Assembly (NCBI GenBank): GCA_015499995.1
Contig: JADNRV010000155.1
Coordinates: forward strand, 1-64,000
Direction of reading: 5' to 3'
Length of the DNA: 64,000 nucleotides
Source of the DNA: Flammula alnicola
Taxonomy: Eukaryota > Basidiomycota > Agaricomycetes > Agaricales > Strophariaceae
Position numbers and translations under genes: made by a program. Of this stretch, positions 3,348 through 38,134 are shown piece by piece (the first letter of the stretch is position 1; each line of letters starts with the position of its first letter). A model generated the notes under the pieces. The model was given only the letters and a program-made list of their open reading frames with translations. It was not told where the DNA came from and did not search any database.

Positions 3348-3348
3348 T

Positions 3349-4912: not shown

Positions 4913-4982
4913 TCTCTTTCTACCTTTCTTTTATCTATGGACTCTGTAGTCTACTTTGGAGACTTGTGAGATCACGGGGGGA

Positions 4983-11034: not shown

Positions 11035-11064
<30 letters not shown>

Positions 11065-11390
11065 AATCAACAGTTTATATTCCGAAACTCGAACACAGCT
11101 CGGACTCTAACTAATACAAACGAGTACGCTACAATACCCAATGCAAAAGAAAGAAATTGGTCGCTCGCAGGGGAGCGTGCAGCGCGCGTGAGCGCGACGC
11201 GGGCGAGACTGCACAGCAGCCTGAAACCCAAATGACGGACCTCGCAGCCCAGGAAATACAAATGCGCGGCGTTGTTAACGCTACCAAACATAAGGTAAAT
11301 ATGGATTAAAAGGGTGGACAGGGGGGTCACCCAGATGAAGTCGGAGCTTGCCCGGCTCTCCCCACTTCATTGGCAAACTCGACGTTGTCG
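11034..11390 (-). mobile_element. 3' UTR and poly(A) tail of LINE X1 (fragment C)
   Basis: Poly(T) at 11034-11063, then the conserved LINE 3' end and a 3' UTR of the second type (gacttcatctgggtg, cgtcgagtttgcc in sense). That type is shared with fragments H and J but not with X0, F, K or M. Reading the minus strand, the poly(A) is followed by AATGCCAGTACAACC, the ORF2 start of X0. The same 15-mer ends fragment G just before the 5' end of H (21296-21310). The upstream edge (caacgacaacgtcg) is the direct continuation of the truncated 3' UTR of H at 35862. I therefore assign it as the tail of X1. Confidence 0.8.
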
Positions 11391-11685
11391 TTGTGTTATC
11401 CCCATAATTACTTATGGTTACCGCATGTGGTATTTCCGCAAGGCCCAGAACAAGGGTCTTATTGCGCAACTCACCAATGTCCAGCGTAAGGCTGGGCTCT
11501 GGATCACTGGGTGCTTCTGCACTTCTCCCTCGTATGGCGTCGAGGCTGTTGCCGGCCTTCTGCCCATGCCCTTACTTTTGGACAGGTTGAACTCTCGGGC
11601 AGTTGCTCGGATTTCTCTCTTGTCTGATACGCACCCGGTCCGGTCATTCATGGCTGGTCCATTACTTAAGCGAGCCACTCGTGCG
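11391..11685 (+). mobile_element. Displaced ORF2 segment of LINE X2
   Basis: A 295-bp piece of LINE ORF2 covering VIPIITYGYRMWYF through AGPLLKRA. Its left neighbour is an opposite-strand LINE tail and its right neighbour is the opposite-strand segment ending LLYRT, the residues that normally precede it. It also ends where fragment J (35863, HKMAIANF) begins. It thus fills the gap between 11686-12261 and 35863-38138 and appears to have been moved during the inversion. Confidence 0.75.
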
Positions 11686-12261
11686 GTAGAGGAGGCGCTT
11701 AAGATGCGGCGGCAGCCCCCTGGTAGAAGACCCAAGCATTTTCATCGAGACAACCGATGTAAATCCTTTGGTGGAATAATATCTCACATGCTCCTTGAAA
11801 GTGAGCTTGCGATCAAAGTAGAACCCAAGATAACGCCAGAACAGCTTTGGCTTGAGCCATTTTCCTGCAGTGTAGGGTTCTTCACCCAAATCAATGGCGG
11901 GATTATAAACCGAAGCCGTGTTATCGAAGTGGAAGATCTCCGACTTCGCGTGCTCCAGAGCGAAAGCGAACTTGGTAAAAAGCTCAAATATAATCTTATA
12001 AGCCTTGCGAAGGTTTACAACATTAGGATCGAGTCCGGTCTCCTGAGAAATCAGGGTACCATCATCTACATATGACAGAAGGTCAACCGCAAGATGGATC
12101 TCACGGCACCTCTTGTAGAAAAGACGCATGATGGGCGCCAAATAAATAGCCGACAAGACAGGGGACAGGGCAGAGCCCTGTCCTACGCCCACATCTGCTT
12201 GCAAAGAGTCTGACAGAAAGGAGTTCCACGCATACTGCGTCTTCCTTTCTACCAGATAAGA
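11686..12261 (-). mobile_element. 5' end of LINE X2: RT domain fragment
   Basis: Minus-strand ORF2 piece from SYLVERKTQYAWNS to KRLLYRT, including the YVDD motif. Its 5' edge at 12261 abuts plus-strand LINE sequence beginning ggggccctggcaagcc (12262-12277). The reverse complement of the same 16 bp lies at 38139-38154, directly after the poly(A) of fragment J. X2 is therefore a 5'-truncated LINE with a 16-bp TSD, inserted into LINE K. Confidence 0.8.
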
Positions 12262-14706
12262 GGGGCCCTGGCAAGCCACCAACGGTATTGTTATCAAACG
12301 GCAGGGTGCACTGGTATTGGCCAGATGTCACTCTTCCGGTCAAGCTATTAGCACTGACACTGAGCTCGATGCCATCTCGGTGGCCATCTCCGCAATGGTA
12401 GCATTCAGGGACGTCACCAGGGTAGTTATCTTCATGGATTCGATGCATGCTGCTCGAATGGCCGTTGATCCTTCCCCGCACTCTCATCAGGGCTCATCTC
12501 TGATAGTGTGTCGGACACTCGAACGATGGTTCCAGGGTGGTGGCAACCATAAAGTCGTTTTTGCAGAGTCTCCCTCCGACATGGAGTGGGGCGTTCATCA
12601 AGAGGCTCACGACCTCGTTCGGGGGTTTCCTGGCATACCTGTTATGCTGAATACCCCTCTATCTGTTGCCTGGCTGAAAAACAAAGCTGACACTGTAGCT
12701 CGGGGTGCCTGGTCGACAGAGGTCGACGAGGTTCCTAATTTACTTGGCTCCAATTTCTTGGAGTTAGGGGATCTAAAGGGTAATCCTCTCCATCCGACCC
12801 CCATTCACGGCGGGCCGTGGCTTGAAGTCAGTACTTTGCTGTGCCCCACCTATTCCGGTAGGAATGACCAGAATCCGGTGGAATGGAACCGGAATCCGGT
12901 GGAATGGGACCGGAATCCAGTGGAATGAGACCAGAATCCAGTGGAATGAGACCAAAATCCACTGGAATGGACGGGAATACATTGTATTTTGTTTAATTTA
13001 GATGTCACATGTCACAGGCATTTGAATTTGCCAAAAAACATCACACCTCTCCTGTATCCCAAGCCTTTTGTCCAAAAACCACCCCGCAAAATCCAAATCT
13101 AAATATAGACATTTAGCGTAAAATCATCTAAAATAGGTTGCGAAAACCACAGGGTCCACCCTAATCTGGCAGGTGTCTGAAACCAAAAAATTCAGGCACA
13201 AGAGTCACATGTCACACAGGTGTGACATGTGCAAATTGACTCCTTTATATGCCTTATTTGTCTATTTGAGATACTTATGTTATGTGACTGACATGTGAGT
13301 GATTCAGGGTCAATAAGGTACCATCAGATTTAGCATTTTGAGGAGATTCTAAATATATCCATATTATGTGTCCCAGACAGCCAATATTACCATATTTAGG
13401 CTGTTTTGAGGACCATGGGAATTTTATGCCTAAAAAGGTAATTATAGCACCTGCTCTGAAACCTGTGTACCTTTAGAAATCATGTGATCTGCTGCTCTTG
13501 TTGATGAGAAAACTGCAAAAAACTCGACCAAACCTGAGTCTTTTCAAAATCACCTGATCCAAATATTGAATTTCCTAATTGGGAATATGTCTTGGCACAC
13601 TATCCAATTTTATTTCAATACCACAGACAGGAACTGATGTCTATTTCTATATATAGACATCAGAAATCACCAAATCATAATGCACTTCTATTCCATTCCA
13701 GTGGAATATCTAGTTGTTCCATTCCAGCCATTCCACTCCTGTTGCATTCCGGTCAACATTCCAGTGGAATCTCGGAATTTGCCCCTTTTTCAAAAAAATT
13801 CAGAAATTTGGCAGGAGATTCCACCGGAATGGCCCTATATTCCACCGGATTCCACCGGATTCCGGTAGGAATAGGGGGGGCACAGCAAAGACCTCGCTTG
13901 AAGTGGGCAGCCGCAACTCTCAGTTGTTCGCCCGCATGTGCCGTGCCATCACGAATCATGCTCCGATCGGCTCGTATTACAAGCGGTTTAAAATCGACGA
14001 CCCATTAGCCCTTGGGTGCACGTGTGGGGTTTATCCTCAGATGCGCGCTCACTTATTCAAGTGCAAGAAGTTGCACATGCTACCTCACAGGGCCCCGCAC
14101 CTGGTGTGGGGTCTTGAGAAATTTTTGAGCTGTCGGACAACCCTAGTGCGTTTGCGTTCAATCGGCCCCAAGCCGGAGTCGGATGAGGGACTCTGGATGG
14201 GGGGCAATCTCATTTGTGGGCGGCGCTGCAGTCAAAGCGACTCACTGCCCATGAGTGTTTGTTCGGTGGAGCGACGGGTCCCGCAAGGGGCTCGGGGTCT
14301 GGTCGTTCCAGATCTGGCTTGTCGGCCCTCGTGGGCGGCTCATCCGAGACATCGTTCAGGACCCGGCTTGGTGGACGGCGGCTTGGGTTCGTGCGCCCTC
14401 GCTTAGCTATGACCACGTTGATTTTACCATTTAATCGGGGAGGGCCTGGCAGGCTCTTCTCGCATCTGGGTGACCCCCCTGTCCACCCTTTTAATCCATA
14501 TTTACTGGATCAGCGGTAGCGTTAACAACGCCGCAGAACCGTATTTCCTGGGCTGCGAGGTCCGTTATTTGGGTTTCAGGCTGCTGCGCAACCAATTTCT
14601 TTCTTTTGCGATGGGTATTGTAGCGTACTCATTTGTATTAGTTAGAGTCCGAGCTGTGATCGTGCTTCGGAATATAAATTGTTGATTTTAAAAAAAAAAA
14701 AAAAAA
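12262..14706 (+). mobile_element. 3' part of LINE K: RNase H, CCHC, 3' UTR, poly(A)
   Basis: LINE ORF2 from GPWQATNGIVIK through the RNase H core (STDTELDAIS, IFMDSMHAA) to HGGPWLEV (about 12828). MITE 1 interrupts it, and it resumes at 13897 (SRNSQLFARMCRA, CTCGVYPQMRAHLFKC), followed by the 3' UTR and poly(A) at about 14690-14706. The reading frame is shifted near 14125. The segment starts with the X2 target-site duplication; its 5' half is at 38139-39217 in the opposite orientation, as expected if an inversion separated them. The tail lies in a copia-like gag gene. Confidence 0.82.
12829..13896 (+). mobile_element. MITE 1: short TIR element with GGAAT-type subterminal arrays
   Basis: A 1068-bp insertion in LINE K flanked by the 8-bp repeat cttgaagt (12821-12828, 13897-13904). 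Ends are CAGTACTTTGCTGTGCCCC on the left and, inverted, CGAGGTCTTTGCTGTGCCCC on the right. Both subterminal zones (about 12850-12980 and 13690-13875) are packed with GGAATCCGGT/GGAATGG units and their complements. The AT-rich core has no ORF. It shares a ~50-bp block (aaggtaccatcagatt... to ggagattcta, near 13316-13355) with MITE 2 and MITE 3. The 8-bp TSD and CAG end suggest a non-autonomous hAT-superfamily element; the transposase source is unknown. Confidence 0.75.
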
Positions 14707-15296
14707 AGATCATAGGTAGAGAGAGCACTCGCATTTCCAGCATACTCTGTAACATTCTCCTCAGACTTTGGAGTGGTCTCCTGCACTTTGTTCGCTTTCC
14801 TGCCCTTCTTGCGATATTCTTGCATGCTCTCCTGCGCATTCTGCTGCGCTTTGATAAAGTGGTTGCACTTGTCCTGTGTGTGATTGGACATACCGCAAAA
14901 CGTGCATTTGAGCGCAGGAGGTGCAGATGAAGTATTAAGTGCAGAACCAATGGTGGGAGCATCCGAGGCGCGATGGCGATGCTGCGCTTCCTCTGTGACA
15001 AATGCCCGCTAAATTGCGGACTTGTCAAGCTTGTCCATAAGCAACAGAGACGAAGCGAAGGTGCTGTACTCGTCCGGAAGCGCGCGGATCATTGCCATGG
15101 ATGCGAGCTCATCATCGAGCTTGGCAAGGTCGAATCCGGTAGGGCGAAGGTCCTGAATGCGGCGAATAGAGGTATCAACTCTATTCATCAAAGTCTGAAG
15201 AGTTTCATCCTCTTGCTTCCGGATGGAGAATAAGTCGTCATAGGCATTAAAGTGTGCGCCCGGACGCTTCTGCTGATGAATATCGCGCAGAGCGGT
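14707..15296 (-). pseudogene. Ty1/copia element 2: gag, C-terminal part with CCHC knuckle
   Basis: Minus-strand gag of a second copia family (capsid and nucleocapsid). It includes TALRDIHQQKRPGAHFN, YDDLFSIRKQEDETLQ, LDDELASMAMIRALP and the zinc knuckle CTFCGMSNHTQDKC (about 14865-14909). An in-frame TAG at 15009-15011 lies between the capsid part and the knuckle. The left end is cut by the poly(A) of LINE K. The right end is cut at the 6-bp repeat agcggt by a 1.77-kb insertion; the N-terminal part follows at 17063-17353. Confidence 0.8.
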
Positions 15297-17062: not shown

Positions 17063-17353
17063 AGCGGTCCAGATCTTGACCGGATCATCCTCAATTCCAT
17101 TGAAGTGGATCTTCTGATCATCCTCTACAAGCATATACATCATTCCGGATGCTTTGTCTGATTTAAGCGTCCAGTCATCAAATGCTTTGGTCTCCTCTGC
17201 TGTAGGGGTTGCAGGGAGTGTAGGCTTGGTCGATGTGCCGTTTACAATGCGCCAGACGCCGTTTGCACGAAGCCAGGCCTGCATATCACTGGACCAAGTG
17301 TTATAATTGAAAGCATTCAATTTAGTGATTTGGGGCATGTGTAAAGAAGACAT
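17063..17353 (-). pseudogene. Ty1/copia element 2: gag N-terminus
   Basis: Begins MSSLHMPQITKLNAFNY and continues TWSSDMQAWLRANGVW, typical of the DUF4219/UBN2-type capsid start in copia gags ('L-x-G-x-N-Y-x-x-W'). It runs to PVKIWTA at the insertion point and rejoins the frame at 15296. The 167 bp upstream (17354-17520) is leader DNA including tctagacaacactag, possibly near the primer site. It is then cut by the poly(T) of LINE F, so no LTR is seen. Confidence 0.75.
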
Positions 17354-17520
17354 GATTGCGAGGGATCCGTGGAGAGCGGAGGAGCACGAGTCGGCTGGGA
17401 TATGCGGAATAGTGTCCGGATATGTGTAAATGAGTTGTATGGCGTTCCGTGCGCAGTAGGTGCGGCGAACTCGGAAATGAAATGAAAGTGTAAACTAGAG
17501 TATTCTAGACAACACTAGAT

Positions 17521-19136
17521 TTTTTTTTTTTTTTTTTTTTAAATCAACAATTTATATTCCGAAGCACGATCGCAGCTCGGACTCTAACTAATACAAACGA
17601 GTATGCTACAATACCCATCGCAAAAGAAAGAAATTGGTTGCTCGCAGGGGAGCATGTGGCGCGCGCGAGCGCGACGTGGGCGAGACTGCGCAGCAGCCTG
17701 AAACCCAAATAACGGACCTCGCAGCCCAGGAAATACAAACGCATGGCATTGTTAACGCTACTGAATGTAGGGTAGATATGGATTAAAAGGGTGGACAGGG
17801 GGGTCACCCAGATGCGAGAAGAGCCTGCCAGGCCCTCCCCGATTAAATGGTAAAATTGACGTGGTCATAGCTAAGCGAGGACCTAAGTCCAAACCGCCGT
17901 CCACCAAGCCGGGTCCTGAACGATGTCTCGGACGAGCCACCCACGAGGGCCGACAAGCCAGATCTGGGACGACCAGACCCCGAGTCCCTTGCGGAACCCG
18001 TCGCTCCACCGAACAAACACTCATGGGCAGTGAGTCGCTTTGACCGCAGTGCCACCCGCAAATGAGATTGCCCCCCATCCAGAGTCCCTCATCCGACTCC
18101 GGCTTGGGGCCGGTTGAATGCAATCGCACTAGGGTTGTCGCTCAAAAATTTCTCAAGACCCCACACTAGGTGCGGGGTCCTGTGAGGTAGCATGTGCAAC
18201 TTCTTGCACTTGAATAAATGAGCGTGCGTCTGAGGATAAACCCCACATATGCACCCAAGAGCCAATGGGTCGTCAATTTTGAACCGCTCGTAATACGAGC
18301 CGATCGGGGCATGATTCGTGATAGCACGGCACATGCGGGCGAACAACTGAGAGTTGCGGCCGCCCACTTCAAGCCACGGCCCACCATGAACAGGGGTCAG
18401 ACAGAGAGGATTACCCTTTAGATCCTCCAGCTCCAAGAAATTGGAGCCAAGTAAGTTGGGAACCTCGTCGACCTCTGTCGACCAGGCATCCCGCGCTACA
18501 GTGTCAGCCCTGTTTTTGAGCCAAGCTACAGATAGAGGAGTATTCGGCATAACAGGTACGCCAGGAAACCCCAGGACGAGGTCATGCGCCTCTTGATGAA
18601 TGTCCCACTCCATGTCGGAGGGAGACTCTGCAAAGACGACTTTACGGTTGCCACCACCCTGGAACCATCACTCGAGTGTCCGACACACTATCAGAGATGA
18701 GCCCTGATGAGAGTGCAGGGAAGGATCAACGGCCATTCGAGCAGCATGCATCGAATCCGTGAAGATAACTACCCTGGTGATGTCTCCGAATGCTACCATT
18801 GCGGAGATGGCCACCGAGATGGCATCGAGCTCAGCATCAGTGCTGATAGCTCGACCGGAAGAGTGGCATCTGGCCAAGACCAGAGCACCCTGCCATTTGA
18901 TAACAATGCTGTTGGCAGCCTGCCAGGGCCCCAGGGGGACCGAGCCGTCGACACCAGCATATGCGGTTCCTGGCTCATCGTCACCCTTTTCGATGAGTTT
19001 ATCCAGTATGATCTTCCACGCAGCATCAGGGTCTTCAGCCCTGCTGACACGGGGTTTAGCCATCCATGTAAACCGGCTTGCATGCCGATCCATGAGGCGA
19101 TATCCAGGCCTGGCGTCTGGAGCGAAAGGCTCCAAT
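17521..19136 (-). mobile_element. LINE F: RNase H, CCHC, 3' UTR (3' half of host LINE A/F)
   Basis: Minus-strand LINE from EPFAPDARPGYRLMDRH through RNase H (AYAGVDGSVP, STDAELDAIS, IFTDSMHAA) to the finger CICGVYPQTHAHLFKC, 3' UTR and poly(T) at 17521-17540. The ORF is broken once near 18665, where the two open frames are offset. It starts exactly where fragment A (6567) stops, and both edges carry the same ~15-bp target duplication around LINE X0. I infer that A and F are one element. Confidence 0.85.
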
Positions 19137-21310
19137 CTCTCCTTTTCCAGTAACCACTACGGTCGACCGTGGGAACAACTTCAGCAACCAGCAACATCGT
19201 CCCCCACAGCTTCACACCGTCGAGCGCTCTTGGGCGCTCCGTTACTAGCAAGCAATGCCACCTAAATCCAATCCGAATCCCAAAGGTGGTGGCGATCGAT
19301 CCACCCGATCGCCCGCCACACCTGCTCCCGTCGATCCGCTGGCTGGTTTATCCCCAGCGGAGAGACTTGCTGTTCAGCAGGCCGCCCTCTCGAGGATGGC
19401 CCCCTCTACCACTGCGTCTGTCCAGGCAGCGCAGTCTACTGCATCTCCCTCTCCCCAGAGGCAGGTGTATGCATCTCCAGTTCCTCAGCAGACGAGGCAA
19501 CTCACACCGAGACCCGATCGCCCTCGATCGCAGTCTTCGATTATCCACGACGACAGTGAGGTGCCCTACGGCGAAGAGGGCAATCCTGGCGACGAAGACG
19601 AGGACATGTATGGGGGCAAAGCCCCCCTGCAGGTCCTTCTACTTGTGATAGCACCACCGCACCTCCGGAGGAAGATTCTGAGGTGTTGCATCGACTCGCT
19701 GAGTCTCTCCGGATGGCATCGTCCTGGCTTTGTCGTTCTGGCGGCGAGGCTTTGGATGCTGCCAGTTCGGAGGTCTCTCGACCTCTCGCATCGTCCATCG
19801 TTGGGTTTATCTCAGCGGTGTACTCATCTTCGTGGTGGGAAGCCACTACACTCAACGCGGACGGTAATCGCACCGTCCACGAGCTTACTTCGACGGTTGT
19901 GGCCTCGGTCTCCCCTCACGAGGAGACGATTCATGCCTCCACGGCCTCCATTCTCCCTGGTGCTTCCAGGTCGGGTCCCATGGACACTGACACGGACACT
20001 GGGATGTCATCCGCGACCCCCGCCCCCAGGACTAGGAAGTCCACTGGCAAGGCTAGGGCGCCGGCGTTCACAGCGCCGTCTGGTGCAGTGGCACCTCCGA
20101 AGGGTGCCCCTGCCCCCCGTCAGCCTCGCAAGAGGCCGGCGGACTCCTACCTGAGGCCCCCGCCTCCTATCCCCCCCCGGCCAGCCGGTTATCCGTCCAC
20201 CCATCAGAGCTATGCTCAGATGGCTGCGGCCAACCCGTTGTCCCAGAGGGACCCCGCCATGGGCCCTAGTGCCTTTGGTGGAGGACCCCCTCATTATCCA
20301 CCTGCGCCTCGAGTTCCTGCCATGCAGGCGGAGCTCTCGGGCAACAAACGATTTTTGTCGTCTCCGATGGGGCCGTCATCTGCTAAGAAGCAGAAGACCA
20401 CCCCGTCGTTTACTTCGTCTGGACCTACTCGCAAGCAGGTCCTGATCCAGTACTCTGGCCCTGGGGAGCGCCCCAAGGACAGTAAGATCGTCGAGCTTCG
20501 TGACAAGATCGACAAAGGACTCCGAGGGTATATCCCTCGCTACCTCTGGTGTGGCCAACGAGGCCGACCTCAACATCATCCGTGGATTTGTCCATGTTAT
20601 CACCCCCAAATCCGACACTCTTGACGTGTGGGTTGGGCTCCCCACCTCGAAGTCTTATCTTAAGGCTCTTGATTTACTGGCCTTTAGTGACTACGTCACC
20701 AGGGTCCCTACCACCAGCATGGAGGTGAAGATGGCGATGCTCGCCTCCCCTCTGTCCATGGACATTATGCTCGCCGGTCCCCCTCGCGTCATCCGCAACT
20801 CGAAGGCGACCTCTACCGCCCACGCCTTCTTCGAAATTTACGACTCGCAATCGGGTCAACGTGTGAAGCGTCTTATCAATAAGACCTTCATGTTCCGTGG
20901 AAGGGTGATCCTCATTCGCCCAACCGTCGTCAGCGCTGGCGTCCCCCTCTGCACTCGTTGCTGGAGGTGGGGCCACCCAAAGAATTCTTGCAAAGCGCGC
21001 CAGCCGATCTGCGCGCGCTGCTCTGGCCCGCACGAGACCGATGTTCATCGCATCGCCGCCTCGTGCTGCAAACCTCACCCGGAGGCCAAGCCCCTGACCA
21101 AAGGCACTCCGCTTGGTACGGACTGCCCCCACACTGCGCGGTGCCCGTCGTGCCGCAAGGATCATTGGGCCTCTTTGAGCCACTGCTTGTTTTGGCGTCA
21201 CCGCTTCGACCGTCCCTGGATCGAGGCTAAATATGCTGAGGTACGTGATTTCTGGCTAAATCGTCGTCCCACCCATCGCTCACATAACATAGCTTAATGC
21301 CAGTACAACC
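19137..21310 (+). mobile_element. LINE X0, 5' UTR and ORF1 (fragment G)
   Basis: The 5' UTR (about 19137-19254, with gtaaccac and tgggaacaacttcagcaac) is alignable with the 5' ends of H and I, so this end is full length. ORF1 follows and overlaps the ORF2 start as TAATG at 21295-21299. The element stops 14 bp into ORF2 (ATGCCAGTACAACC), where the 5' end of LINE X1 begins. The rest of ORF2 is fragment B at 6568-11034, opposite strand. Confidence 0.82.
19255..21297 (+). pseudogene. LINE X0 ORF1 (gag-like, three zinc knuckles)
   Basis: An RNA-binding nucleocapsid-like protein of Tad1/I-type LINEs. It starts MPPKSNPNPKGGGD, with a long Ser/Pro/Ala-rich N-terminal half (basic KRPADSYLRPPPP near 20130) and a conserved middle. 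The C-terminal cysteine cluster reads CTRCWRWGHPKNSC, CARCSGPHETDVH and CPSCRKDHWASLSHC. Frameshifts near 19620-19670 and near 20520 break it into three frames. It terminates ...HNIA at TAA 21295-21297, overlapping ORF2 by one base. Confidence 0.82.
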
Positions 21311-21443
21311 ATCTCCTCCTTATTCGGTAACCACTTCGTGCGACCGTGGGAAACAACTTCAGCAACACCAACATCGTCCCCCACAGCTCCTCCTCGTTGA
21401 GCGCTCCTGAGCGCTACTTTACCAATCGACAGATAACAACACA

Positions 21444-23461
21444 ATGCCCCCCAAACCCGGTTCTGGTGGCGATCCGCCGAGCGGATCTCGCGCATCGGAG
21501 AAATTGTCTGGATTTGCGCCTCGGCGCACTTCTGGAGTTGGCTCGTCGTCTGCTTCGGCGGCGGCAGCCTCCACCCCTGCGTCTCCCTCTCCTCAGAGGC
21601 AGACCTACTCATCTACAGTCCCTCAACAACAGCGGGACAAAACCCCAGTCAGTGAGCGCGAATGCACTCCTGTGTTTACTCCGTCGGCCCTGCCACCTCA
21701 GCAGGATCCGTCGCATTACCTCACGGATGAGGATGTCATTCTCGATTATGAGGCGACTCCTCCTCCTGCTTCTCAATCGACAGCAGATCCCGCCCTGGAG
21801 GGTGAGCTCACATCTGCACTCGATGATATGTCCCGGAGTGCGAGGGCCATTGCCGCATGGATGAGGGGAAACCCAAGTTCATCTGATGATGCCCTCGCTC
21901 GCCCTGCAACTGATCTCGCTGCTGCGATCGCCTCTCTGGTGGCTGCAGCTGAATCTACCGGATGGACCGACATTACTGCGTCCATCGTCGGAGACGAAGC
22001 CCTCTCTCTGGGATATGTCATCGGAGAGACCATCTCAGGCCCAGACGACACCGTCATGAGGCCCAACACCGTCCCCTTTGCCCAGATCGACCCCCATTCC
22101 AGTGATGCGGAGTCGTCTGCCATGGAGACTGACACCACCTCACGCCCTCCCCCTCCTCGTCAGGATAAAGGGAAGGGTAGAGCCCCCACGAGCAAGGTGG
22201 GCCCAGCTTCGTCGCAGCCTTCGGCTGCGCCGAAGCAGGGCCCTCCTGCTCCTCGCCAGTCTCGCAAGAGGCCGGCGGATTCTTACCTGAGGCCCCCGCC
22301 TCCTGTTTCCCCTCGACCTAAGGTTGGATATCCGGTGTTCCTTGGAGCGCCGGTCCCCGTAAGCGCACGTTTGCTGAGCTTGCGGCGGCCAACCCTCTGT
22401 CGCAACGAGATCCTGTCATGGGCCGTAGTGCTCTTGGCAGGTATCCACCTCCGCCCCGCGTCCCTGCGATGCAAGCGGCCATCGATGAGCGGGTTTCTGC
22501 TGCCAAGAGGCAGAAGAAGCACCCCTCTTTCACCACTGCTGGCCCGTCACGCAAGCAGATCCTCCTCGCGTTTAGCGGCCCCTACACGAGGCCGCACGAC
22601 ATGAAACTCGTCGACCTGGTCTACAAGATCGACAAAGCTTTCCGCGATGCAGGCAGCGCCAATCGGGTCCTGTCTGCCTCGCACGCATATGATGGCATCT
22701 CTCGTGCCACCTCCCTTGTGTCCACCCAGAGCGATCTCGATATCGCTCGAGGGTGGGTGCATAGAATCCTCCCGGAGTCTGACACTGTCAAGGTGTCGGT
22801 CAGCCTCCCTTCTTCCACCTCGTACCTCCGGGTACTTGACCTACCTGCTTATGGCGATTTCGCCAGTAAGACCCTTACCACAGGGGCCGAAGTGAAGATG
22901 GCAATTCTTGCCTCTCCACTTTCCGTCTTCGCGCCTTTCAAATCCGAGCCACGGATTAAGCGCAACTCCCCGGCGAGCACCACTTGTGTGGCGTTCATCA
23001 ATATCTGGGACTCTCAGTCGGGAGCCCGCGCGAAGGCTCTTATCAACAAGACCTTCATGTTCCGTGGCAGGGCTTACCGCATTCTTGCGGCGCGCGCCAA
23101 CCCCGGCGTCCCTCTCTGCAATAGATGCTGGAGGTGGGGCCATCCATCTAACGTTTGCAGGGCTCCCCAGCCCCGCTGCGCTCATTGCTCCGGGCCACAC
23201 GGGGAGGAGGTACATCGTATCGCCGCTTCATGTTGCAAGGGAAATCCCAAGGCAACTCCACCCATCCCACCTACCCCCGTTGGGGTGGACTGCCCTCATG
23301 CCCCGCGTTGCCCTAATTGTAAGGGCGCGCATAAACCTTATGACAGAAAGTGTCATTTCTGGCACAACCGGTACGATCGTGAATGGATTGATGCCAAATA
23401 TGCCCAGGTACGTGATTATTGGAATCAACGTCGTGCACTCCACTCACAAAATGTAGCTTAA
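21444..23461 (+). pseudogene. LINE X1 ORF1 (gag-like, zinc knuckles)
   Basis: Begins MPPKPGSGGDPPSGSR. The low-complexity N-terminal half contains RKRPADSYLRPPPPV; then comes the conserved region FSGPYTRPHDMKLVDLVYKI, and C-terminal knuckles CNRCWRWGHPSNVC, CAHCSGPHGEEVH and CPNCKGAHKPYDRKC. It ends QNVA at TAA 23459-23461, overlapping the ORF2 ATG (TAATG). The first frame (to 22604) and the second (from about 22360) are offset, so there is one frameshift near 22320-22400. LINE I has a shift at the equivalent place. Confidence 0.85.
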
Positions 23462-24996: not shown

Positions 24997-26140
24997 TGTT
25001 ACGACCATCCATTTTCATTTCACCGCTCGTACCTTCCTTGATATTCTCGAACCTTCTCTACGTAGTCCTCACATTACTACGGCCTTGGTTCCCTTAAATG
25101 GACGAACATTCCTTTCCTTCTATATTGTTACTCCTCTAACAATATACACTTCCTCCATTGTTCCCAATACGGTCTCTATTGTACTTATATCGTCTGCTCG
25201 GATACGTTCCATTCTTCTCCGCCATTGTTCCCCTTTTGGAACAATGCTTCTCTCTTCCTGCCATTGTTCCTCGTTCGGAACAATGCCCTATGTCTAAAGT
25301 ACTATAAAACCAGATACTTGTAGTAGTTAGCTTCTCTAGCTTGATCTTGAGAATCCTACCTGATTACTCTGGACCTTGAAACCTCTGAGCTCTACTTCAG
25401 ACAATACCGCTAGCGGCATTCTGAACGCATACTGATAGTGTTTAAAGGTCCAGTCTTGGGACTGGAAAAAGACCGCAACCAGACCGGACTGGACCGCAAA
25501 AAGACCGGACCAGCAGTCCGGTCTTTTGATTTTTGAGAATCAAAGACCGCAAAAAGACCGGTCTCGGTGGACCGGTCTTTGCGGTTAAGACCGGTCTGAA
25601 CCGGCTACTTTTTAGCCCTGATTTATCCCTTCAAATCGGCCCCAAGGGCATCCAGATTGGTAAAGTTTTGGCTGAGAAATAAATAAAACAGTCAAAAAGT
25701 GTCTAAAAGAGTAGAAAATGCGGAATATTAGTGTAGAACAGTCAATTCTCAACGAAATTTAACGTTCCAGGGCTCAATTTCAAGGTATATATCATGTCTA
25801 CAAATATTACTGATACATATATATCAAATTACTGGTGGTTTGCATCGAAAAACCGGTCTCAGACCGGTTAAGACTGGTTAAGACCGGAATCTGGTTCAGA
25901 CCGGTCCAAGACTGCAAAAGACCGACGTAGACCGGTCTGAATCGGTCCAGTCCGGTTTTTTGACATCTTGGGATGTATATGGACCGGTCTCAGTCTCGGT
26001 CTATGTCCCTGGGGGCCAAAAGACCGGACTGGACCGGACTTCAAAACACTACATACTGAAACTTGACTTCACGGTCGTGTAGTCATTCACTAAATATAGA
26101 TCACATCTATCTTTAGTAACACTTCGCTACGACCGTAACA
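24997..26140 (+). repeat. 5' LTR of chromovirus 1 (contains hAT element 1)
   Basis: Begins TGTTACGACC and ends GACCGTAACA. TATA box actataaaacc at about 25301-25311. Just upstream are two hairpins, attgttcc...ggaacaat (about 25224-25246 and 25261-25286). The hAT element lies downstream of the TATA box. Without it and its 8-bp duplication the LTR is 520 bp, equal to the 3' LTR. Confidence 0.9.
25436..26051. mobile_element. hAT-type non-autonomous element 1 (GACCGGTC arrays)
   Basis: A 616-bp insertion in the 5' LTR with 8-bp TSD catactga (25428-25435, 26052-26059). The uninterrupted 3' LTR (near 33262) is the empty site, so the boundaries are certain. Ends are TAGTGTTT on the left and, inverted, TAGTGTTTTGAAGTCCGG on the right. 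About 170-200 bp at each side is filled with accggtc/gaccggt and agaccgcaaa units. The AT-rich core (about 25615-25845, with atttaacgttccaggg) matches the core of element 2 (36848-37398). There is no ORF. 8-bp TSD plus TAGTG ends fit hAT. Confidence 0.9.
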
Positions 26141-26572
26141 AAAGATCAAGCTCGTTAAACCACCCTGCACCTTCTATTCAGCTAGGCGCACCCCGAACCT
26201 ACGAAACCCGAAACCGAACCCCCGAAGCTCATCTGGATCCTCAAGATAAAGGCATAAACCTTTAATCTCAATTCAAGACGACGTTGAGAATTTACTCAAA
26301 CAAGAAAACCCCGAACGACCGCCGTACAAGGTGAAAGATCCTGATCGGCACCGGAAGTCAACAGCATAGCGTCTTTAACTCCCCGGACCACAACATCGGA
26401 ATACTCCGATTCCACCCCGAACGAAACCCCTGAAACAATACAAGGGTCCACACTGGACGTCTCAATCCCACCAAACACTACAAACGACCCAGCCATCGAA
26501 CAAGTCACTCAGGCACTTGAAGACCTAGACCCGCACTTCGTCGATACAACTGAACCCGAACGAGACTATGAA

Positions 26573-27496
26573 ATGCCATCCCGATCTCACTCTGAAGAAC
26601 GACCCTCTCGACCAAACCCGGCATTTGCCCCCGTGGCACCTTTACATGAAAGACTCGGGCAATCCTCTATAAAGGAATTACGCATTAACCCCCCTGCCGC
26701 ATTTGACGGAACCCGAAACAAGTTCAAAACTTTTCAGCATTCACTTACCGTGTACCTTGGGGTCAATGATGACACCTATGACACGGACAAGAAGAAAATC
26801 TCCTATGCCTTGTCTTTCCTCTCGGAAAAAGATGCAGCAGCATGGAGACAAGCCTGGATCGAAGACCGGACTGTAGCTGGAACCCTGCTCTTTGGGAGCT
26901 GGGCGAACTTCACAAAGGAATTGGCCAAGGCCTTCACTCCAATTGATGAAAAAGGGGACTCCTTAGACCAGCTCAAAAGGCTGAGACAAGGAAAACTATC
27001 TGCGGACGAACTCAATGCGAAATTCAAGATCCTCCTTGCAAAAACAGGGATCACGGGCGATGTCGCCCAAATCGACTACTACCAGGACTGTCTAAACCAA
27101 GGACTCCTGGCTAGTATTCTAAAGAGCGAAAACGTCCCCGAAACCATGATAGGATGGTACGATAAAGCGGTAAAACTGGACAACAACTTCAATCGCTTCT
27201 TGAAGAAGTTCAGTACCCGCAAAGAAGGGCAACCACAAGCCCAAACAAAGAAAGCAGACAAACCCTGGAGAAGGAACACTTACATACCCCGCTACCAAGC
27301 CCCCGCACCAACCCATGACCCAAATGCGATGGACGTAGACATGATGACAGTAGATGAGCGCAACGACCTTATGCGCCGAGGAGCTTGCTTTTTCTGCAAA
27401 CAGAATGGACACATATCCCGCGATTGCCCAAAAAAGAAAGGCAAACAAACCTCCAGGTACAACAAATCCTACGACAAGGATAGATCCACAAGCTGA
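26573..27496 (+). CDS. gag: Chromovirus 1 Gag (capsid-nucleocapsid)
   Basis: A 307-residue Gag. The capsid homology region includes FDGTRNKFKTFQHSLTVYL and the KLSADELNAKFKILLAKTG stretch; the nucleocapsid knuckle CFFCKQNGHISRDC lies near residues 278-291. The first ATG is at 26573, but the same frame is open upstream for about 75 codons without an ATG, so a longer or frameshifted N-terminus cannot be excluded. It stops at TGA 27494-27496. The gag frame is then open again to a TGA at about 27626, after which pol continues in the -1 frame. Stop suppression or decay is needed to join Gag to Pol. Confidence 0.88.
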   Translation: MPSRSHSEERPSRPNPAFAPVAPLHERLGQSSIKELRINPPAAFDGTRNKFKTFQHSLTVYLGVNDDTYDTDKKKISYALSFLSEKDAAAWRQAWIEDRTVAGTLLFGSWANFTKELAKAFTPIDEKGDSLDQLKRLRQGKLSADELNAKFKILLAKTGITGDVAQIDYYQDCLNQGLLASILKSENVPETMIGWYDKAVKLDNNFNRFLKKFSTRKEGQPQAQTKKADKPWRRNTYIPRYQAPAPTHDPNAMDVDMMTVDERNDLMRRGACFFCKQNGHISRDCPKKKGKQTSRYNKSYDKDRSTS

Positions 27497-27624
27497 AAGC
27501 CCTCTACCAGAGAGGCATACAACCAAATCCGCGCTTTGACAGCGCAGTTTAGCCAGGACAAGTTGAAAGAATTAGCCGACTATGACGAAGAGGACACAAA
27601 GGAGGACAAAGAGTTGAAGGATTT

Positions 27625-30600
27625 TTGAAACGGCGATTCATCCCAACGTATGCCTCGCCCATTCTCTCTTTACATTCTGTATTAGTAGCCCGTGTAGAGA
27701 AACAATCCATGCACATTCCTGTTTCCCTCACGAGTGAAAATCAGAATAAGAGAATCGTTGAAACCTCCGCCCTCCTTGACACTGGAGCAGGTGGAATCTT
27801 CATGGATCACAACCATGCTCAGAATAACGGACTGAAACTCAAAAAACTCGATAAACCCATCCCAGTGAAAAATGTAGATGGAACCCTGAACAAAAAGGGA
27901 TCCATTACCCACTATGTCGAAATGGATCTCAAGGTAAACGGACGAACAGAACAGACAATCTTCATGATCACAGGACTAGGAAGGCAAAAAATCATCCTTG
28001 GTCTGCTATGGTTCAGAAAAAATGACCCGGATGTAAACTGGCGAAAAGGCACCCTAACCTGGCGAAAAGCAGTCATGGGTATCACTCGTGGCTCGCTAAT
28101 CAAAAGGTTTTTCAAAAAAGCCTTGTCAAGACTAGCGAAACCCAAACCAGTAGACCAGGCAGAACCACAAGAACTGGACCTCCCTCTCGACTTAATCAAG
28201 TCGACACAATCCGAATTGGACATGAGTTTGCCATATGAGGAGTTTACTCCCATATCGGTAGCGGATCTCCCTCTAGCTTTCAATGAAGCAATGGAACCCA
28301 CCCCGGACCCAGATACCTTGGACGATAACCTCGAAGGCTATGACATGGCCTTCTTGGAAATGGAAGAGGAATACGACGATGACCTTCTATTGGCATACAT
28401 GGAACATGGATTTGATGAAGAAACCAGGGACATATGGATAAATGCAAAACACACGACGTCCCAAACCCTCGCCCAAGAGGTCGAAGCAGAAAAACCAAAA
28501 AAGTCCCTTGAAGAAATGATCCCTCTCTCTCTTCATGACTATTTGGACCTATTCGACCAAAAGGTGGCAGATCGTTTCCCAGAATCTCGACCCTGGGACC
28601 ACCATATTGACACCAAACCAGGCTTCGAAGAATTCTTGAATACGAAATTCAAACCAAAGACATATCCACTGAACCCCACGGAAAACATCAAACTGGATGA
28701 ATTCCTGAAGGATAACCTCGACAAAGGGTATATCCGACCGTCGAAATCCTCCATGGCTTCTCCATTCTTCTTTGTCGAAAAGAAAGATGGGAAACTTCGA
28801 CCTTGCCAGGACTACCGACTCTTAAACGAATGGACGATCAAGAATAAATACCCACTTCCCCTCATCCAAGAACTCATGGATAAGATCAAAGGAGCAAAAT
28901 ATTTTACCAAATTAGACGTCCGCTGGGGTTACAACAACGTTAGAATCGCAAAAGAAGACACCTGGAAGGCTGCTTTCACAACCAATCGAGGGCTCTATGA
29001 ACCATTGGTCATGTTCTTCGGGATGTGTAACTCCCCAGCAACCTTCCAAGCCATGATGGACTCAACCTTCAAAGACATGCTCCTCCTCCTGTGGCTGATT
29101 GTATATATGGACGACATTTTGATCTTCGCCGACACCATTGAAGAGCTTGAAGATCGCACTCGCAAAGTTCTTCAAAGACTTAGGGAAAATGACCTTTACT
29201 TGAAACCCGAAAAATGCGAATTCTTCGTACCAGAAACAGCATATCTAGGGTTCATCATTGGGCACGGACAAGTAAGGATGGACCCAGCAAAGCTCAAGGG
29301 ACTATCGGAATGGCCTGTCCCAACAACCGACAAGCAAGTAAGGAGTTTCCTAGGATTCGGAAACTTCTATCGACGGTTTATTCGGAGCTACTCTGAAATC
29401 GCCCAGGCCATGAACATGCTCCTGAAGAAAGATCGCCTGACATTCGAATGGACACCAGAAGCGCAAGAAGCATTTGACACCCTGAAAAAGAAATTCACAG
29501 AAGAACCAGTTTTGATGATGCCAGACCAGACACGATCCTTCCAGATTGAATGTGACGCATCAAAGTATGCAACTGGAGCTGTCCTCACGCAACTCGACTC
29601 CAATGGCAACCGACATCCTGTATCCTTCATCTCAAAGAGCTTCACTCCGGCAGAGCGCAACTACGAGATCTACGATCGAGAACTCTTGGCGATCAAATGG
29701 GCCCTGGAGGAATGGCGTCATTACATTTACGGATCACCATTTACCACACGCGTCTATTCGGATCACAAGAATTTGACGTACTATCGACAACCCCGAAACC
29801 TGAATAGACGCCAAATGAGGATGCACCTTTATTTGTCAGAATTCGACCTGGAACTCATACACCAAGCAGGATCAAAAATGATACAGTCAGATGCTCTTTC
29901 CAGACGCCCTGACATGATCATAGATGAAAATGACAACGAAGACATAACCATGCTCCCGGACAACCTCTTCGTCAACCTGATCGATCTCGAACTACAGAAA
30001 AGGATTGCAGAATCTGACAATCTTGATATCGAAGCAGCCGAAGCAATCAAATTGCTGCTGGGAGAAGGCCCAACAGAATTACGACGGAATATGGAAGATT
30101 GGACAACAGAAACAGCGAACGGGAACACCCTCCTCTTCTATAAAGGACGGAATTATATTCCAAACAACATAGAACTGCGACGAGAAATAGTAAAACGACA
30201 CCACGATAGCGACACCGCAGGCCACCCAGGAGAACTGGAAACCTTCAATAAAGTACGAGAATACTACTGGTGGCCAGGACTGAGACGATTCATAAAAGAA
30301 TATGTCTCTGGATGTGCATCCTGTCAACAATTCAAGATAAACCGACGGCCGACGAAGCCAATACTAATGGCAATTGAAGGCGCCAAAACGCTGTGCCCCT
30401 TCGCCAAAATCTCTTATGACCTAATAACTGATCTGCCGATCAGTAAAGGCTTTGATAGTATACTGTCCGTCGTGGACTACGGACATACAAAGGGGGTAAT
30501 TATCATCCCTACTACAAAAACCTCAAATTCGGACGAAATTCAACGACTCCTCTGGAACAATGTTTACAAACGCTATGGACTACCAGATGAAGAGATTTCT

Positions 30601-31463
30601 GATCGAGACCCACGCTTCAATGCGAAGGGATTTCGGGAATATCTGAAGCTTATGGGCATTAAACAATCCCTTTCATCAGCATACCACCCCCAATCTGATG
30701 GCTCAACAGAGCGCTTCAACCAAGAAATCGAAGCATATCTCTCAATCTATTGTTCTCAACACCCAGAAGACTGGAGCGATGCAACGGCAACCCTGGAATT
30801 CACGCTAAATGACCGAAGACACGCGGAAAGGACCAGAACCTCTTTCGAACTCATGAATGGCATCGCACCTAGAACCATTCCCACTTCCTTCGAAAAAATG
30901 AACTTTCCAGAAGTCGAAGCCCATCTCAAACAACTCACCAGAGATAGAGAAGAAGCATTAGCAGCCCATGAACTCGCAAGACGCCGAATGATAGAGCGAT
31001 CTAAAGGAGGCACAATCCCCTTCAAGAAAGGTCAGAAGGTCTGGCTCGAAGCAAAAACCTGAAGACCACATATCAGACTAAGAAGATAGCCCCAAAGCGA
31101 CATGGACCATTTGAAATTCTAGAACAAACTGGTCCCATAAACTACAGACTGAAATTACCGCGGACTTGGAAGATTCACGACATATTCCACGCCGCTCTTC
31201 TTACACCATTCAAAGAAACCGAAGCCCACGGACCGAACTTTACTTTCCCCCCTCCTGACCTTATCGATGGAGAAGAAGAATGGGAACTTGAAGCTATTAT
31301 AGCCCACAAGAAAATGCGAGGAAAACTGCTCTACTTGATTCACTGGAAGGGTCGTCCAGACTCGGATGACTCATGGGAACCCTCGACGTTGTTCGAACAC
31401 TCCTTGGAAACGCTGAACGACTACCAACGTCGCCATAAACTCCCACTCTCCTCCCCACTCTGA
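27625..31463 (+). pseudogene. pol: Chromovirus 1 Pol: protease, RT, RNase H, integrase, chromodomain
   Basis: Protease LLDTGAGG (near residue 50); RT with KLRPCQDYRLLNEW, TKLDVRWGYNN and YMDDIL (catalytic residues 496-497, about 29104-29115); RNase H (ECDASKYATG, YDRELLAI). Integrase has a HHCC finger (HHDSDTAGH ... CASCQQ) and DDE core (DLITDLPIS, SDRDPRF, ERFNQE). The first frame stops at 31060-31062. Loss of one A in an A-run (near 31053) explains this: the +1 frame continues KIHDIFHAALLTPF and a chromodomain (WELEAIIAHKK, YLIHWKGRPDSDDSWEP, about 31280-31385) to TGA 31461-31463. The chromodomain probably targets insertion to heterochromatin. Confidence 0.92.
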
Positions 31464-31468
31464 ACGCT

Positions 31469-31966
31469 ATGAACGCACTCCGAACCATTCTCGCCACTCT
31501 CTCCTCCTGCTTCAAAGCTAAAAATAACCAAACCAGCGATACCACCTCGAGGCCGATCATACTGGATCGGGAACAAGGGATTCTATTTATGGGAATCCCT
31601 GATCTAGACGACATACCAGACTTGCAGATGATGTCGCCAGAACAAATGAATGATTGGGTGATAAGAAAAGAAGAGGAACTGGAAGAGGCAAAAGGAAAGG
31701 GGGATTGGAAGAAGGAAGAAGAATGTAAGCTCATTCTTCTCGACTCGACGCTGCTTCGAAAAAGCTCCACCTCCCAAATCGAATGTGAACGAGTCTCCAC
31801 CGGTTATCTCCTCCCCTTCGCCAACCTTCTCAAGTATAAAGACTTGAAAAAAGTCCTCATCTCTCCAACAAGAACATTCCGGATTGCCACCTTCAAGACG
31901 ATCCCCTACCACTTACGACACGACGACAATGGCAACCAACTCGAACACTACGAATTCTACCTCTAA
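31469..31966 (+). CDS. Chromovirus 1 extra ORF A (165 aa, unknown)
   Basis: This lies 5 bp after the pol stop, upstream of the 3' LTR. It begins MNALRTILATLSSCFKAK. A charged middle (RKEEELEEAKGKGDWKKEEE) looks helical, and the C-terminal half is LLPFANLLKYKDLKKV and EHYEFYL. I recognise no domain. Its last 38 bp overlap the start of ORF B in another frame. It is intact and directly adjacent to pol and ORF B, so it may be expressed from the same RNA. Confidence 0.55.
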   Translation: MNALRTILATLSSCFKAKNNQTSDTTSRPIILDREQGILFMGIPDLDDIPDLQMMSPEQMNDWVIRKEEELEEAKGKGDWKKEEECKLILLDSTLLRKSSTSQIECERVSTGYLLPFANLLKYKDLKKVLISPTRTFRIATFKTIPYHLRHDDNGNQLEHYEFYL

Positions 31967-32774
31967 CGCTCTCCCCCCTCTGACTCAGCTCGAATTCATC
32001 GAGCTCGTGACGAATGACCTATACTACGCCTCTATCATGCGGGCTCATGAAGGACGGAATGTTGAGCGCGCCATGCTCGACACATTCCACGAGGTCCAAC
32101 AAACCATACGACGACTAGAAGAGGACATACGAGTCCTCCAAACGACCCAGTCCAACATTTTCCATTTCGCCATGCGAGGCGACCTCGAACTCAGAACCCA
32201 AGAAATCCGTACCGAGTACCATAGACATCGAGCTAGATCGGCAAGCAGAACGTTTGCACCTACCGCACGCCCGCGAACTGCTCACAGAACCAGACACCAG
32301 TCCCCCGGATCTTCACTGGACAACCCCATCCACCTCGACGGAGCGTCCCCGAGAACCCAACATCCCACTCCGCGGTACCCCCGACCAGCACGAAACAGCC
32401 CACCTCCTGTCTATCCCGGAAGAGGCCGAACTTCTTCCCCATACCCACTCCCCACGACCACGCCATCGACGGCGTCCGGCTCGACCTCGACCGGCCCACC
32501 AAGAGCGTCGACCTCCGCCTACGACCGAAGCTGATGAAACGAATGTAATAACTGCAGGCAGCATGGCCATTGGGCACTTTCGTGCCCTACTTACCTCTGT
32601 TCCGGTTGCGGACGACTACAGCTGCACCATTATCTCAGAGACTGTCCGAGCCGCCAACACGTTCGACCACGTTCAGATTACGATAACCGGGCATCACCAA
32701 CACTAGACGGATACGAGGACGACATGGACCCTGAAGGGACTGCAAACACGACAGGAGAACCTTACGGAAATTGA
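31929..32774 (+). pseudogene. Chromovirus 1 extra ORF B: coiled-coil / Ser-Pro-rich protein with two zinc knuckles
   Basis: I chose the start MATNSNTTNSTSNAL (31929). The helical N-terminal part (LTQLEFIELVTNDLYY, FHEVQQTIRRLEEDIRVLQTT) is followed by a Ser/Pro/Arg-rich tract. Two consecutive TGA codons (32532-32537) follow, after which the same frame encodes two cysteine-histidine boxes: CNNCRQHGHWALSC (CX2CX4HX4C) and CSGCGRLQLHHYLRDC (CX2CX5HX5C). It ends at TGA 32772-32774. The layout resembles a second, Gag-like protein. Whether the double TGA is decay or a readthrough site is unknown. Confidence 0.55.
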
Positions 32775-32832
32775 CTACAGGACGCTATTGGGGATCTCAA
32801 CGACGAGGCGTCGTTGCCTAGAACGGGGGTAA

Positions 32833-33352
32833 TGTTACGACCATCCATTTTCATTTCACCGCTCATACCTTCCTTGATATTCTCGAACCTTCTCTACGTA
32901 GTCCTCACATTACTACGGCCTTGGTTCCCTTAAACGGACGAACATTCCTTTCCTTCTATATTGTTACTCCTCTAACAATATACACTTCCTCCATTGTTCC
33001 CAATACGGTCTCTATTGTACTTATATCGTCTGCTCGGATACGTTCCATTCTTCTCCGCCATTGTTCCCCTTTTGGAACAATGCTTCTCTCTTCCTGCCAT
33101 TGTTCCTCGTTCGGAACAATGCCCTATGTCTAAAGTACTATAAAACCAGATACTTGTAGTAGTTAGCTTCTCTAGCTTGATCTTGAGAATCCTACCTGAT
33201 TACTCTGGACCTTGAAACCTCTGAGCTCTACTTCAGACAATACCGCTAGCGGCATTCTGAACGCATACTGAAACTTGACTTCACGGTCGTGTAGTCATTC
33301 ACTAAATATAGATCACATCTATCTTTAGTAACACTTCGCTACGACCGTAACA
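32833..33352 (+). repeat. 3' LTR of chromovirus 1
   Basis: 520 bp, TGTTACGACC to GACCGTAACA, preceded by a purine-rich gaacgggggtaa. It is an intact counterpart of the 5' LTR and the empty-site reference for hAT element 1. TATA box near 33137; the same two attgttcc/ggaacaat hairpins lie at about 33060-33122. Confidence 0.93.
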
Positions 33353-35686
33353 CTACCCCTAAGGCGTTCAGGCCCATTGTGCTTCTGAATACTGTGGGGA
33401 AACTCATCGAGAAAATGATCTCGAATCGCATTCAGTTCGACGCTGTCGGACAGGATATATTTCACCCGAATCAGGTTGGAGGCGTCAGGGGACGCTCCAC
33501 CGAGGACGCGGGTCTGTTTTTGACACACATGGTGAGGGGCGAAAGGGTTGAGGACTAGCGTCCTTGCCTTTGACCTTGCTCAGTTCTTTCCTTCTCTTAA
33601 TCACGAAGTTCTCGTGATCATTCTCCAGAAGCTTGGCTTTCCGCCTCTGGTGGTCAAGTTTTTCAGTTCTTATTTGGTAGAGAGGAAGATGCAGTATGCG
33701 TGGAACTCCTTCCTGTCAGATCCTCTGCAGGCAGATGTGGGTGTGGGACAGGGCTCTGCCCTGTCCCCGGTCTTGTCTGCTATTTACTTGGCGCCTATCA
33801 TGCGTCTTTTCTACAAGAGGTGCCGTGAGATTCATCTTGCGGTTGACCTTCTGTCATATGTTGACGATGGTACCCTGATTTCCCAGGAAACCGGACTCGA
33901 TCCCAATGTTGTAAACCTTCGTAAGGCTTACAAGATTATATTTGAGCTTTTTACCAAGTTCGCTCTCGCTCTGGAGCACGCGAAGTCGGAGATTTTTCAC
34001 TTCGACAACACGGCTTCAGTCTATAACCCTGCTATTGATTTGGGTGAAGAACCCTACACTGCAGGCAAATGGCTCAAGCCAAAGCCGTTCTGGTGATATC
34101 TTGGGTTTTATTTTGATCGCAAGCTCACTTTCAAGGAGCATGTGAGATATTATTCCACCAAAGGATTTACATCGGTCGTCTCGATGAAAATGCTTGGGTC
34201 TTCTACCAGGGGGCTGCCGCCGCATCTTAAGCGCCTCCTCTACCGCACGTGCGTTATCCCCATAATTACTTATGGTTACCGCATGTGGTACTTCCGCAAG
34301 GCCCGAAACAAGGGGCTTATTGCGCAACTTACAAACGTTCAGCGTAAGGCTGGACTTTGGATTACTGGGTGCTTCCGCACTTCTCCATCGTATGGCGTCG
34401 AGGCCCTTGCCGGCCTTCTGCCCATGCCTCTACTTCTGGACAGACTGAATTCTCGGGCGGTGGCCCGGATCGCTCTCTTGTCTGATACTCACCCGGTCCG
34501 GTCATTTATGGCTGGACCTTTGCTTAAGAGAGCCGTTCCTCACAAAATGGCGATCGAGAATTTTACCGAGCGTCAACGTGAAAAATTGCGCGGCGGCCTT
34601 GTGGGCAATGCAATGTACCACCCCGCTGGTCTGGAGGAGCTGGAGCCTTTTGCTCCAGACGCCAGGCCTGGATATCGTCTAATGGACCGGCATTCGAGCC
34701 GGTTTACATGGATGGCTAAACCCCGTATCAGCAGGGCCGAAGACCCTGATGCTGCATGGAAAATCGTACTGGATAAACTCATCGAAAAGTGTGACGATGA
34801 GCCAGGAACCGCATATGCTGGTGTCGACGGCTCGGTCCCTCCGGGGCCCTGGCAGGCCGCCAACGGCATTGTTATCAAGCGGCAGGGTGCGCTGGTCTTG
34901 GCCAGGTGCCACTCTTCCGGGCGGGCAATAAGCACTGATGCTGAGCTCAATGCCATCTCGGTGGCTATCTCTGCAATGGTAGCATTCGGAGACGTCACCA
35001 GGATAGTTATTTTCACGGATTCGATGCATGCTGCTCGAATGGCCGTTGATCCTTCCCCGCACTCTCATCAGGGTTCCTCTATGATAGTATGTCGGACACT
35101 TGAACGATGGTTCCAAGGTGGTGGTAACCGAAAAGTCGTTTTTGCAGAGTCTCCCTCCGATATGGAGTGGGACATCCATCAGGAGGCTCATGACCTCGTC
35201 TTGGGGTTTCCCGGTGTGCCTGTTACACCGAATACCCCTTTATCTATCGCTTGGCTTAAGAATAAAGCTGACACTGTAGCGCGGGATGCCTGGTCGACAG
35301 AGGTCGACGAGGTTCCCAATTTACTTGGCTCCAACTTTCTGGAGTTAGAGGATCTAAAGGGTAATCCTCTCCGTCCGACCCCCGTTCGCGGCGGGCCATG
35401 GCTTGAAGTGGGCAGCCGCAACTCTCAGTTGTTCACCCGCATGTGCCGTGCTATCACGAATCATGCTCCGATCGGCTCGTATTACGAGCGGTTCAAAATT
35501 GACGATCCATTGGCTCTCGGTTGTACGTGTGGGGTTTATCCTCAGATGCGCGATCATATCTTTGGGTGCCCGAAGCTCCCGATGCTACCTCACAGGGCCC
35601 CGCACCTAGTGTGGGGTCTTGAGAAATTTTTGACTGACAACGTTACAGCGTTTGCTTTCAACCGGCCTCCAGCCGGAGTCGGATGA
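33353..35686 (+). pseudogene. LINE X1 ORF2, C-terminal part: RT, RNase H, CCHC
   Basis: Resumes at FRPIVLLNTVGKLIEKM. It has lost 8 bp in the codons for RAGWAKG near 33536 (frameshift) and carries a TGA at 33093+1000 (34093-34095) where other copies have Arg/Gln before YLGFYF. Otherwise it includes RT (FDLAQFFPSLNH, SYVDDGTLIS), RNase H (GVDGSVPPGPW, STDAELNAIS, IFTDSMHAA) and the finger CTCGVYPQMRDHIFGC, ending GVG at 35684-35686. X1 is therefore dead, although full length on reconstruction. Confidence 0.9.
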
Positions 35687-35862
35687 GGGACTCTGGATGG
35701 GGGGTGATCCTAGGTGTCGTCGGGGCCTTGGCCCAAGACCTAGTGCCCGCAGGTGTTTCCATTATGAGCGATAAATCCCGCAAGGGCCGCAGCCGTGTTC
35801 GTTGCATGGCTTCGCTTGTGACTCTTTGAGTCTATTGCACGCATCATTTGGAGGACCCGCCA

Positions 35863-38089: not shown

Positions 38090-38134
<45 letters not shown>

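Follow-up and report, generated by a model that had tools for sequence, protein, structure and literature searches.

A nest of LINE retrotransposons in the window (the whole stretch of DNA analysed, 64,000 bases long) carries what is probably an inversion of about 24 kb together with a displaced piece of 288 bp; as far as can be read from the sequence itself, both would have formed in a single event, when three breaks were repaired by end joining. For each of three LINEs, named H, J and M, the two ends lie on opposite strands and are joined by an exact target-site duplication (TSD). Undoing one inversion and returning the small piece, as proposed in the first-pass annotation, restores the three TSD pairs and rejoins H, J and M as well as the LINEs A and K. 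The signs of an inversion were confirmed and the size of the segment, previously given as about 24.5 kb, was refined to 24,189 bp, with the three breakpoints listed with the other features in Table 1.

Table 1. Junctions, target-site duplications and LINE parts of the rearranged nest (positions in the window).
Feature	Position	Strand	Remarks
Derived junction 1, H 3′UTR part c (−) and piece b	11391/11392		One T claimed by both sides
Derived junction 2, piece b and reversed part a	11679/11680		One C shared
Derived junction 3, H 3′UTR and rest of J	35868/35869		One T shared
Inverted segment, 24,189 bp	11680-35868		TSD pairs and LINE continuity
H 5′ TSD AATGCCAGTACAACC, 15 bp	21296-21310	+	Exact pair
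H 3′ TSD AATGCCAGTACAACC, 15 bp	11020-11034	−	Exact pair
J 5′ TSD, 16 bp	12262-12277	−	Exact pair
J 3′ TSD, 16 bp	38139-38154	+	Exact pair
M 5′ TSD, 14 bp	19121-19134	+	Exact pair
M 3′ TSD, 14 bp	6555-6568	−	Exact pair
LINE H, 5′ part	21311-24996	+	LINE bases 1-3682 on L013
LINE H, ORF2 end and first 3′UTR part	33353-35868	+	Ends at LINE base 6198
LINE H, last 3′UTR part c and poly(A)	11035-11391	−	From LINE base 6199
Ty3-type LTR retrotransposon inside H, CTACC on both flanks	24997-33352	+	Pfam, LTR comparison
LINE J, 5′ part a	11680-12261	−	LINE bases 4000-4579
LINE J, displaced piece b, 288 bp	11392-11679	+	LINE bases 4580-4867
LINE J, 3′ part (J3) and poly(A)	35869-38138	+	0.55-kb insert at 36849-37398
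LINE M, 5′ part, host of H	19135-21310	+	Continuous with 11034(−) in 10/10 fetched family copies
LINE M, ORF2 (endonuclease, reverse transcriptase) and poly(A)	6569-11034	−	Pfam, family copies
LINE A, 5′ part, host of M	5361-6568	+	LINE bases 3780-4984
LINE A, 3′ part and poly(A)	17520-19134	−	LINE bases 4971-6548
LINE K, 5′ part, host of J	38139-39217	−	LINE bases 4110-5188
LINE K, 3′ part and poly(A)	12262-14707	+	1.07-kb insert at 12830-13895

The window corresponds to bases 1-64000 of a contig of 122,918 bases, in an assembly of 74.4 Mb and 861 contigs, and its GC content is 49.5%. Nine of its open reading frames were scanned with Pfam, of which six matched domains of LINE endonuclease/reverse transcriptase or of Ty3-type LTR elements and three matched nothing. 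Since all 19 proteins scanned on the contig belonged to retroelement families or gave no Pfam match, nothing points to an effect on a host gene.

The assignment of the elements as LINEs is in agreement with their endonuclease and reverse transcriptase domains, their poly(A) tracts and, for H, J and M, TSDs of variable length. Domains RVT_1 and Exo_endo_phos_2 were found above cut-off in M, and Exo_endo_phos_2 in the 5′ part of H; the 3′ ORF of H showed no domain, and RVT_1 of A reached 25.9 bits, under its cut-off of 29.6. LINEs J and K were classed by DNA similarity rather than by Pfam scan. All LINE coordinates refer to L013, one complete copy of 6564 bases elsewhere in the genome; M represents another family, with about 72% identity to L013. 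As controls, 10 of the 40 listed copies of the M family and 20 of 40 listed LINE loci were fetched. On this map A holds M, M holds H and H holds the Ty3-type element, and K holds J. In the Ty3-type element, a 616-bp insert (25436-26051) with edges overlapping by 8 bp breaks the left LTR, and alignment of the two LTRs in two pieces (439 and 89 bases, with an 8-base overlap) showed two mismatches. The inserts in J and K have edge overlaps of 9 and 10 bases, respectively, on the LINE map, and a query from the J insert (36900-37390) gave 44 genome matches.

The TSD strings of H, J and M each occur once per strand in the window, the H pair on opposite strands as first described. Six upstream-end flanks were compared with six poly(A) flanks, giving 36 pairings in which row N (probably no true LINE 5′ end) and row A (no TSD) serve as weaker controls. 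The three expected pairs had 13, 15 and 16 bp in common, the value of 13 for M resulting from the position of the flank cut, and the remaining 33 pairings at most 8 bp. A duplication of about 15 bp noticed earlier between the end of A and the sequence beginning at 19136 proved to be the 14-bp TSD of M, inserted in A, and A resumes past M at 19134-17520(−). The exact J pair was likewise confirmed, but its variant with CAAGCC, taken at first as distinctive, is a minority form seen at 3/22 sites of fetched loci (0/3 other window sites). The variant in the M TSD is comparable (3/21 sites in fetched loci, 0/2 other window sites), so that two of the three TSDs carry a minority variant in both of their copies. 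The sequence of the H TSD is normal for the M family, occurring in all ten fetched M copies, and therefore marks the site and not the copy. None of these copies carries an insertion at that point and a genome search for the M|H junction, allowing up to 2 mismatches, found it a single time, which gives no hint of a hot spot; since the J and M sites are uninterrupted in all 20 fetched loci, no sign of insertion hot spots was obtained for these either.

The halves separated in the window are continuous in other copies. In all ten fetched copies of M, the sequence up to 21310 continues directly at 11034(−) with the TSD present once. Aligned to L013, the joined parts of H and J fit end to end, LINE order being judged by position on the LINE map and not codon by codon. 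The second part of H (BLAST alignment 33350-35868(+), LINE bases 3675-6198, overlapping the 5′ part by 8 LINE bases) stops at 6198, and H resumes at 6199 with part c (11392-11033(−), LINE bases 6199-6558). The continuation of the H 3′UTR on the other strand was thereby upheld, its initial coordinates of 35862 and 11390 being off by 6 and 1-2 bases, respectively. LINE J passes from 4579 to 4580 at the start of piece b (11392-11680(+), LINE bases 4580-4868), and from 4868 to 4867, with a 2-base overlap, at the start of J3 (35868-36848(+), LINE bases 4867-5847; 37399-38128(+), 5839-6562). The order of ORF2 segments in the first-pass annotation thus holds on the LINE map, with a displaced piece of 288 bp instead of 295 bp and the third break at junction 3 of Table 1. 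The 3′ part of K aligned as 12262-12829(+) with LINE bases 5173-5740 and 13896-14707(+) with 5731-6546.

Among the 20 fetched loci, the order a-b-J3 was contiguous in every one, and H3 and c were in register in 13 (in L018, in the second copy); in the other seven the H3 alignment ended before the end of H3. Identity profiles of paired halves, obtained over 13-17 of the 20 loci, showed no correlation (A5-A3 −0.06, J_a-J_b 0.27, J_b-J_3 0.25, J_a-J_3 −0.34, H3-H_c 0.06, K5-K3 −0.01). As these values lie within the spread of unrelated pairs (−0.64 to 0.76), the common copy identity of the halves gains no support from them, and the LINE copies are read as star-like or mosaic.

In LINE coordinates, the earlier joints lay at 6198|6199 of H and at 4579|4580 and 4867|4868 of J. 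Judged by the sequence of other copies at those points, from which base retention and the 1-base overlap at c|b are deduced, there was a net loss of about 1 bp, and no junction has more than 1 bp in common. A separate junction comparison gave 0, 1 and 1 shared bases, with 0 for c|b, whose flank was built without the lost T. Similarity between the break sites was not notable, as in six comparisons 21 to 300 of 300 shuffles scored as high.

Two derived junctions had one genome occurrence each, c|b (31 nt) at up to 2 mismatches and H|J (34 nt) at up to 3, and so had the J|K insertion junction at up to 3. Searches with the c|b, H|J, M|H and J|K junctions revealed no further copy of the nest in the assembly. 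For the restored a|b joint, taken with the variants of J, no exact match was obtained in the genome and six with 1-2 mismatches, two of which belong to other LINEs of the window (H, 34202-34275; K, 38720-38793). For the restored H|c joint, 14 genome matches were obtained at up to 1 mismatch, one of them exact (C346), and the flank beyond the poly(A) of this exact match differs.

The present order, the paired TSDs and the fit of the halves to another LINE copy are observed directly. The event would have started from a LINE nest in normal order, in which A held M, M held H with its Ty3-type element, and K held J. Three double-strand breaks would have occurred, of which one cut the H 3′UTR behind base 6198 and the other two, 288 bp apart, cut J behind bases 4579 and 4867. 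The 24.2-kb block between H and J would then have flipped and its ends been rejoined with almost no trimming, and the freed J piece, unchanged in orientation, would have been joined on the H side rather than on the J side, so that the signed order (block, piece) would have become (piece, reversed block). Near-total base retention and the absence of shared sequence fit canonical end joining. With so little sequence lost (about 1 bp) and no more than 1 bp in common at any junction, the best reading is a single event in which three breaks were repaired by end joining. As in end-joining inversions, the segment is reversed with respect to an identifiable earlier order and no breakpoint homology beyond 1 bp was found. 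The interpretation is supported, and the rearrangement is ordinary in kind and unusually clean in detail. H and J had been inserted before the inversion, which sets the only bound on its age; the Ty3-type element lies inside the block and sets none. A narrower version, in which a single local shattering made the three breaks simultaneously, possibly through the endonuclease of an active transposon, and rejoining in the wrong order left a net change of about one base, is doubtful.

Two successive inversions, of the block with the small piece and then of the small piece alone, or in the reverse order, could yield the present signed order of segments, as deduced from the LINE map. In either order, one breakpoint would have had to be cut a second time at exactly the same base, and yet nearly all bases are kept; we consider this course unlikely, and the single three-break event is simpler.

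An assembly error, by which reads were misjoined within the nest of similar LINEs, appears rather unlikely. Assemblers tend to fail in nests of similar repeats, and the assembly is in 861 contigs. It may also contain two haplotypes, as suggested by a chitin synthase family 2 search of the genome with near-equal scores on the contig pairs C223/C286, C268/C456 and C53/C157 (24 matches, best 540.7 bits). These matches also suggest a fungus, but do not prove it, as the same search was positive in 4 of 14 control genomes, named as bacteria. Misassembly, however, usually needs overlap, whereas no junction has more than 1 bp in common, similarity among the break sites is unremarkable, and nearly every base is present once across three joints.

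By the LINE map, the TSD matrix and the break-site comparison, three further explanations, namely recombination between inverted LINEs, twin priming and independent insertions, were judged unlikely. Once the order is restored, H and J form inverted repeats that share 92.8% identity along 981 bases (34537-35517 versus 35868-36848) and could have served for homologous recombination. This is very improbable, as the breaks at 6198 in H and at 4579/4867 in J are 1.3-1.6 kb out of register and recombination between H and J would leave the 288-bp piece unmoved; the first-pass preference for end joining over homologous recombination was thus sustained. LINE twin priming is a 5′ inversion of the inserted copy, and the inverted piece followed by 3′UTR and poly(A) has a similar layout, with an inverted LINE piece next to a normal 3′ end. 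That 11685-11034(−) is a separate short twin-primed insertion without any inversion, and the other pieces independent truncated copies, is nevertheless scarcely credible, because the TSD partner of the poly(A) end at 11034 lies at 21310 and not at 11680, parts a, b and J3 follow one another directly on the LINE map, and the halves of M are contiguous in 10/10 fetched copies; TSD partners and continuity argue otherwise.

Some LINE ends lie outside this scheme. LINE A starts at base 3780 (5360/5361) and its poly(A) flank has no matching TSD; no TSD was found for A, and its 5′ side may also be interrupted or rearranged. LINE N (51891 to 49545, −) ends at LINE base 5178, with no TSD partner found in the matrix. 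LINE L, which stops at 4712, and LINE K, which starts at 4110, showed no continuation up to the contig end, the other end of K being absent from the contig. One further break, loss or very long insertion at 51891/51892 would explain the ends of N, L and K. A query of 51900-59000 gave 46 matches to a repeat family, many of them starting at 51900, the first base of the query. An inverted repeat at 1479-2594 and 3348-4463 has 1116-bp arms, 99.8% identical, with poly(A) and poly(T) tracts facing each other over 753 bp.

Among the papers listed in a literature search, none reported this locus or an inversion read from LINE TSDs. The raw sequence of one transposon nest can suffice to recover an inversion and its junctions almost to the base, with no second strain. 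Genome-wide matching of TSDs across strands could count end-joining rearrangements where strain comparisons cannot align repeats. Were the local shattering described above true, nested LINEs would be an internal, strain-free record of such events.

In the portions of its description used here, REANNOTATE reconstructs the history of nested transposons by reassembling the fragments of one insertion and ordering insertions by nesting (PMC2672092), as was done in this work. It assumes collinear fragments, normally models non-collinear ones separately and, in those portions, has no TSD check, whereas TSDs and strand reversal are the evidence here. In chromoanagenesis and chromothripsis (PMC6371609), too, multiple breaks are rejoined in an altered order, and this may happen in a single event; with three breaks and 24 kb, the present rearrangement is far too small for that name. 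Small inversions can form through non-homologous end joining, and in some of them a fragment is displaced at a breakpoint. Inversion breakpoints of Drosophila provide a background for comparison (PMC5080602, PMC6861252, PMC7584159). The present case agrees with end-joining inversions in its non-homologous breakpoints, the sharing of at most 1 bp, the little loss and the reversed orientation. It differs in that it was deduced from a single sequence with interrupted LINEs rather than by comparing strains, and in that the 288-bp piece would have been excised and moved with its orientation kept.
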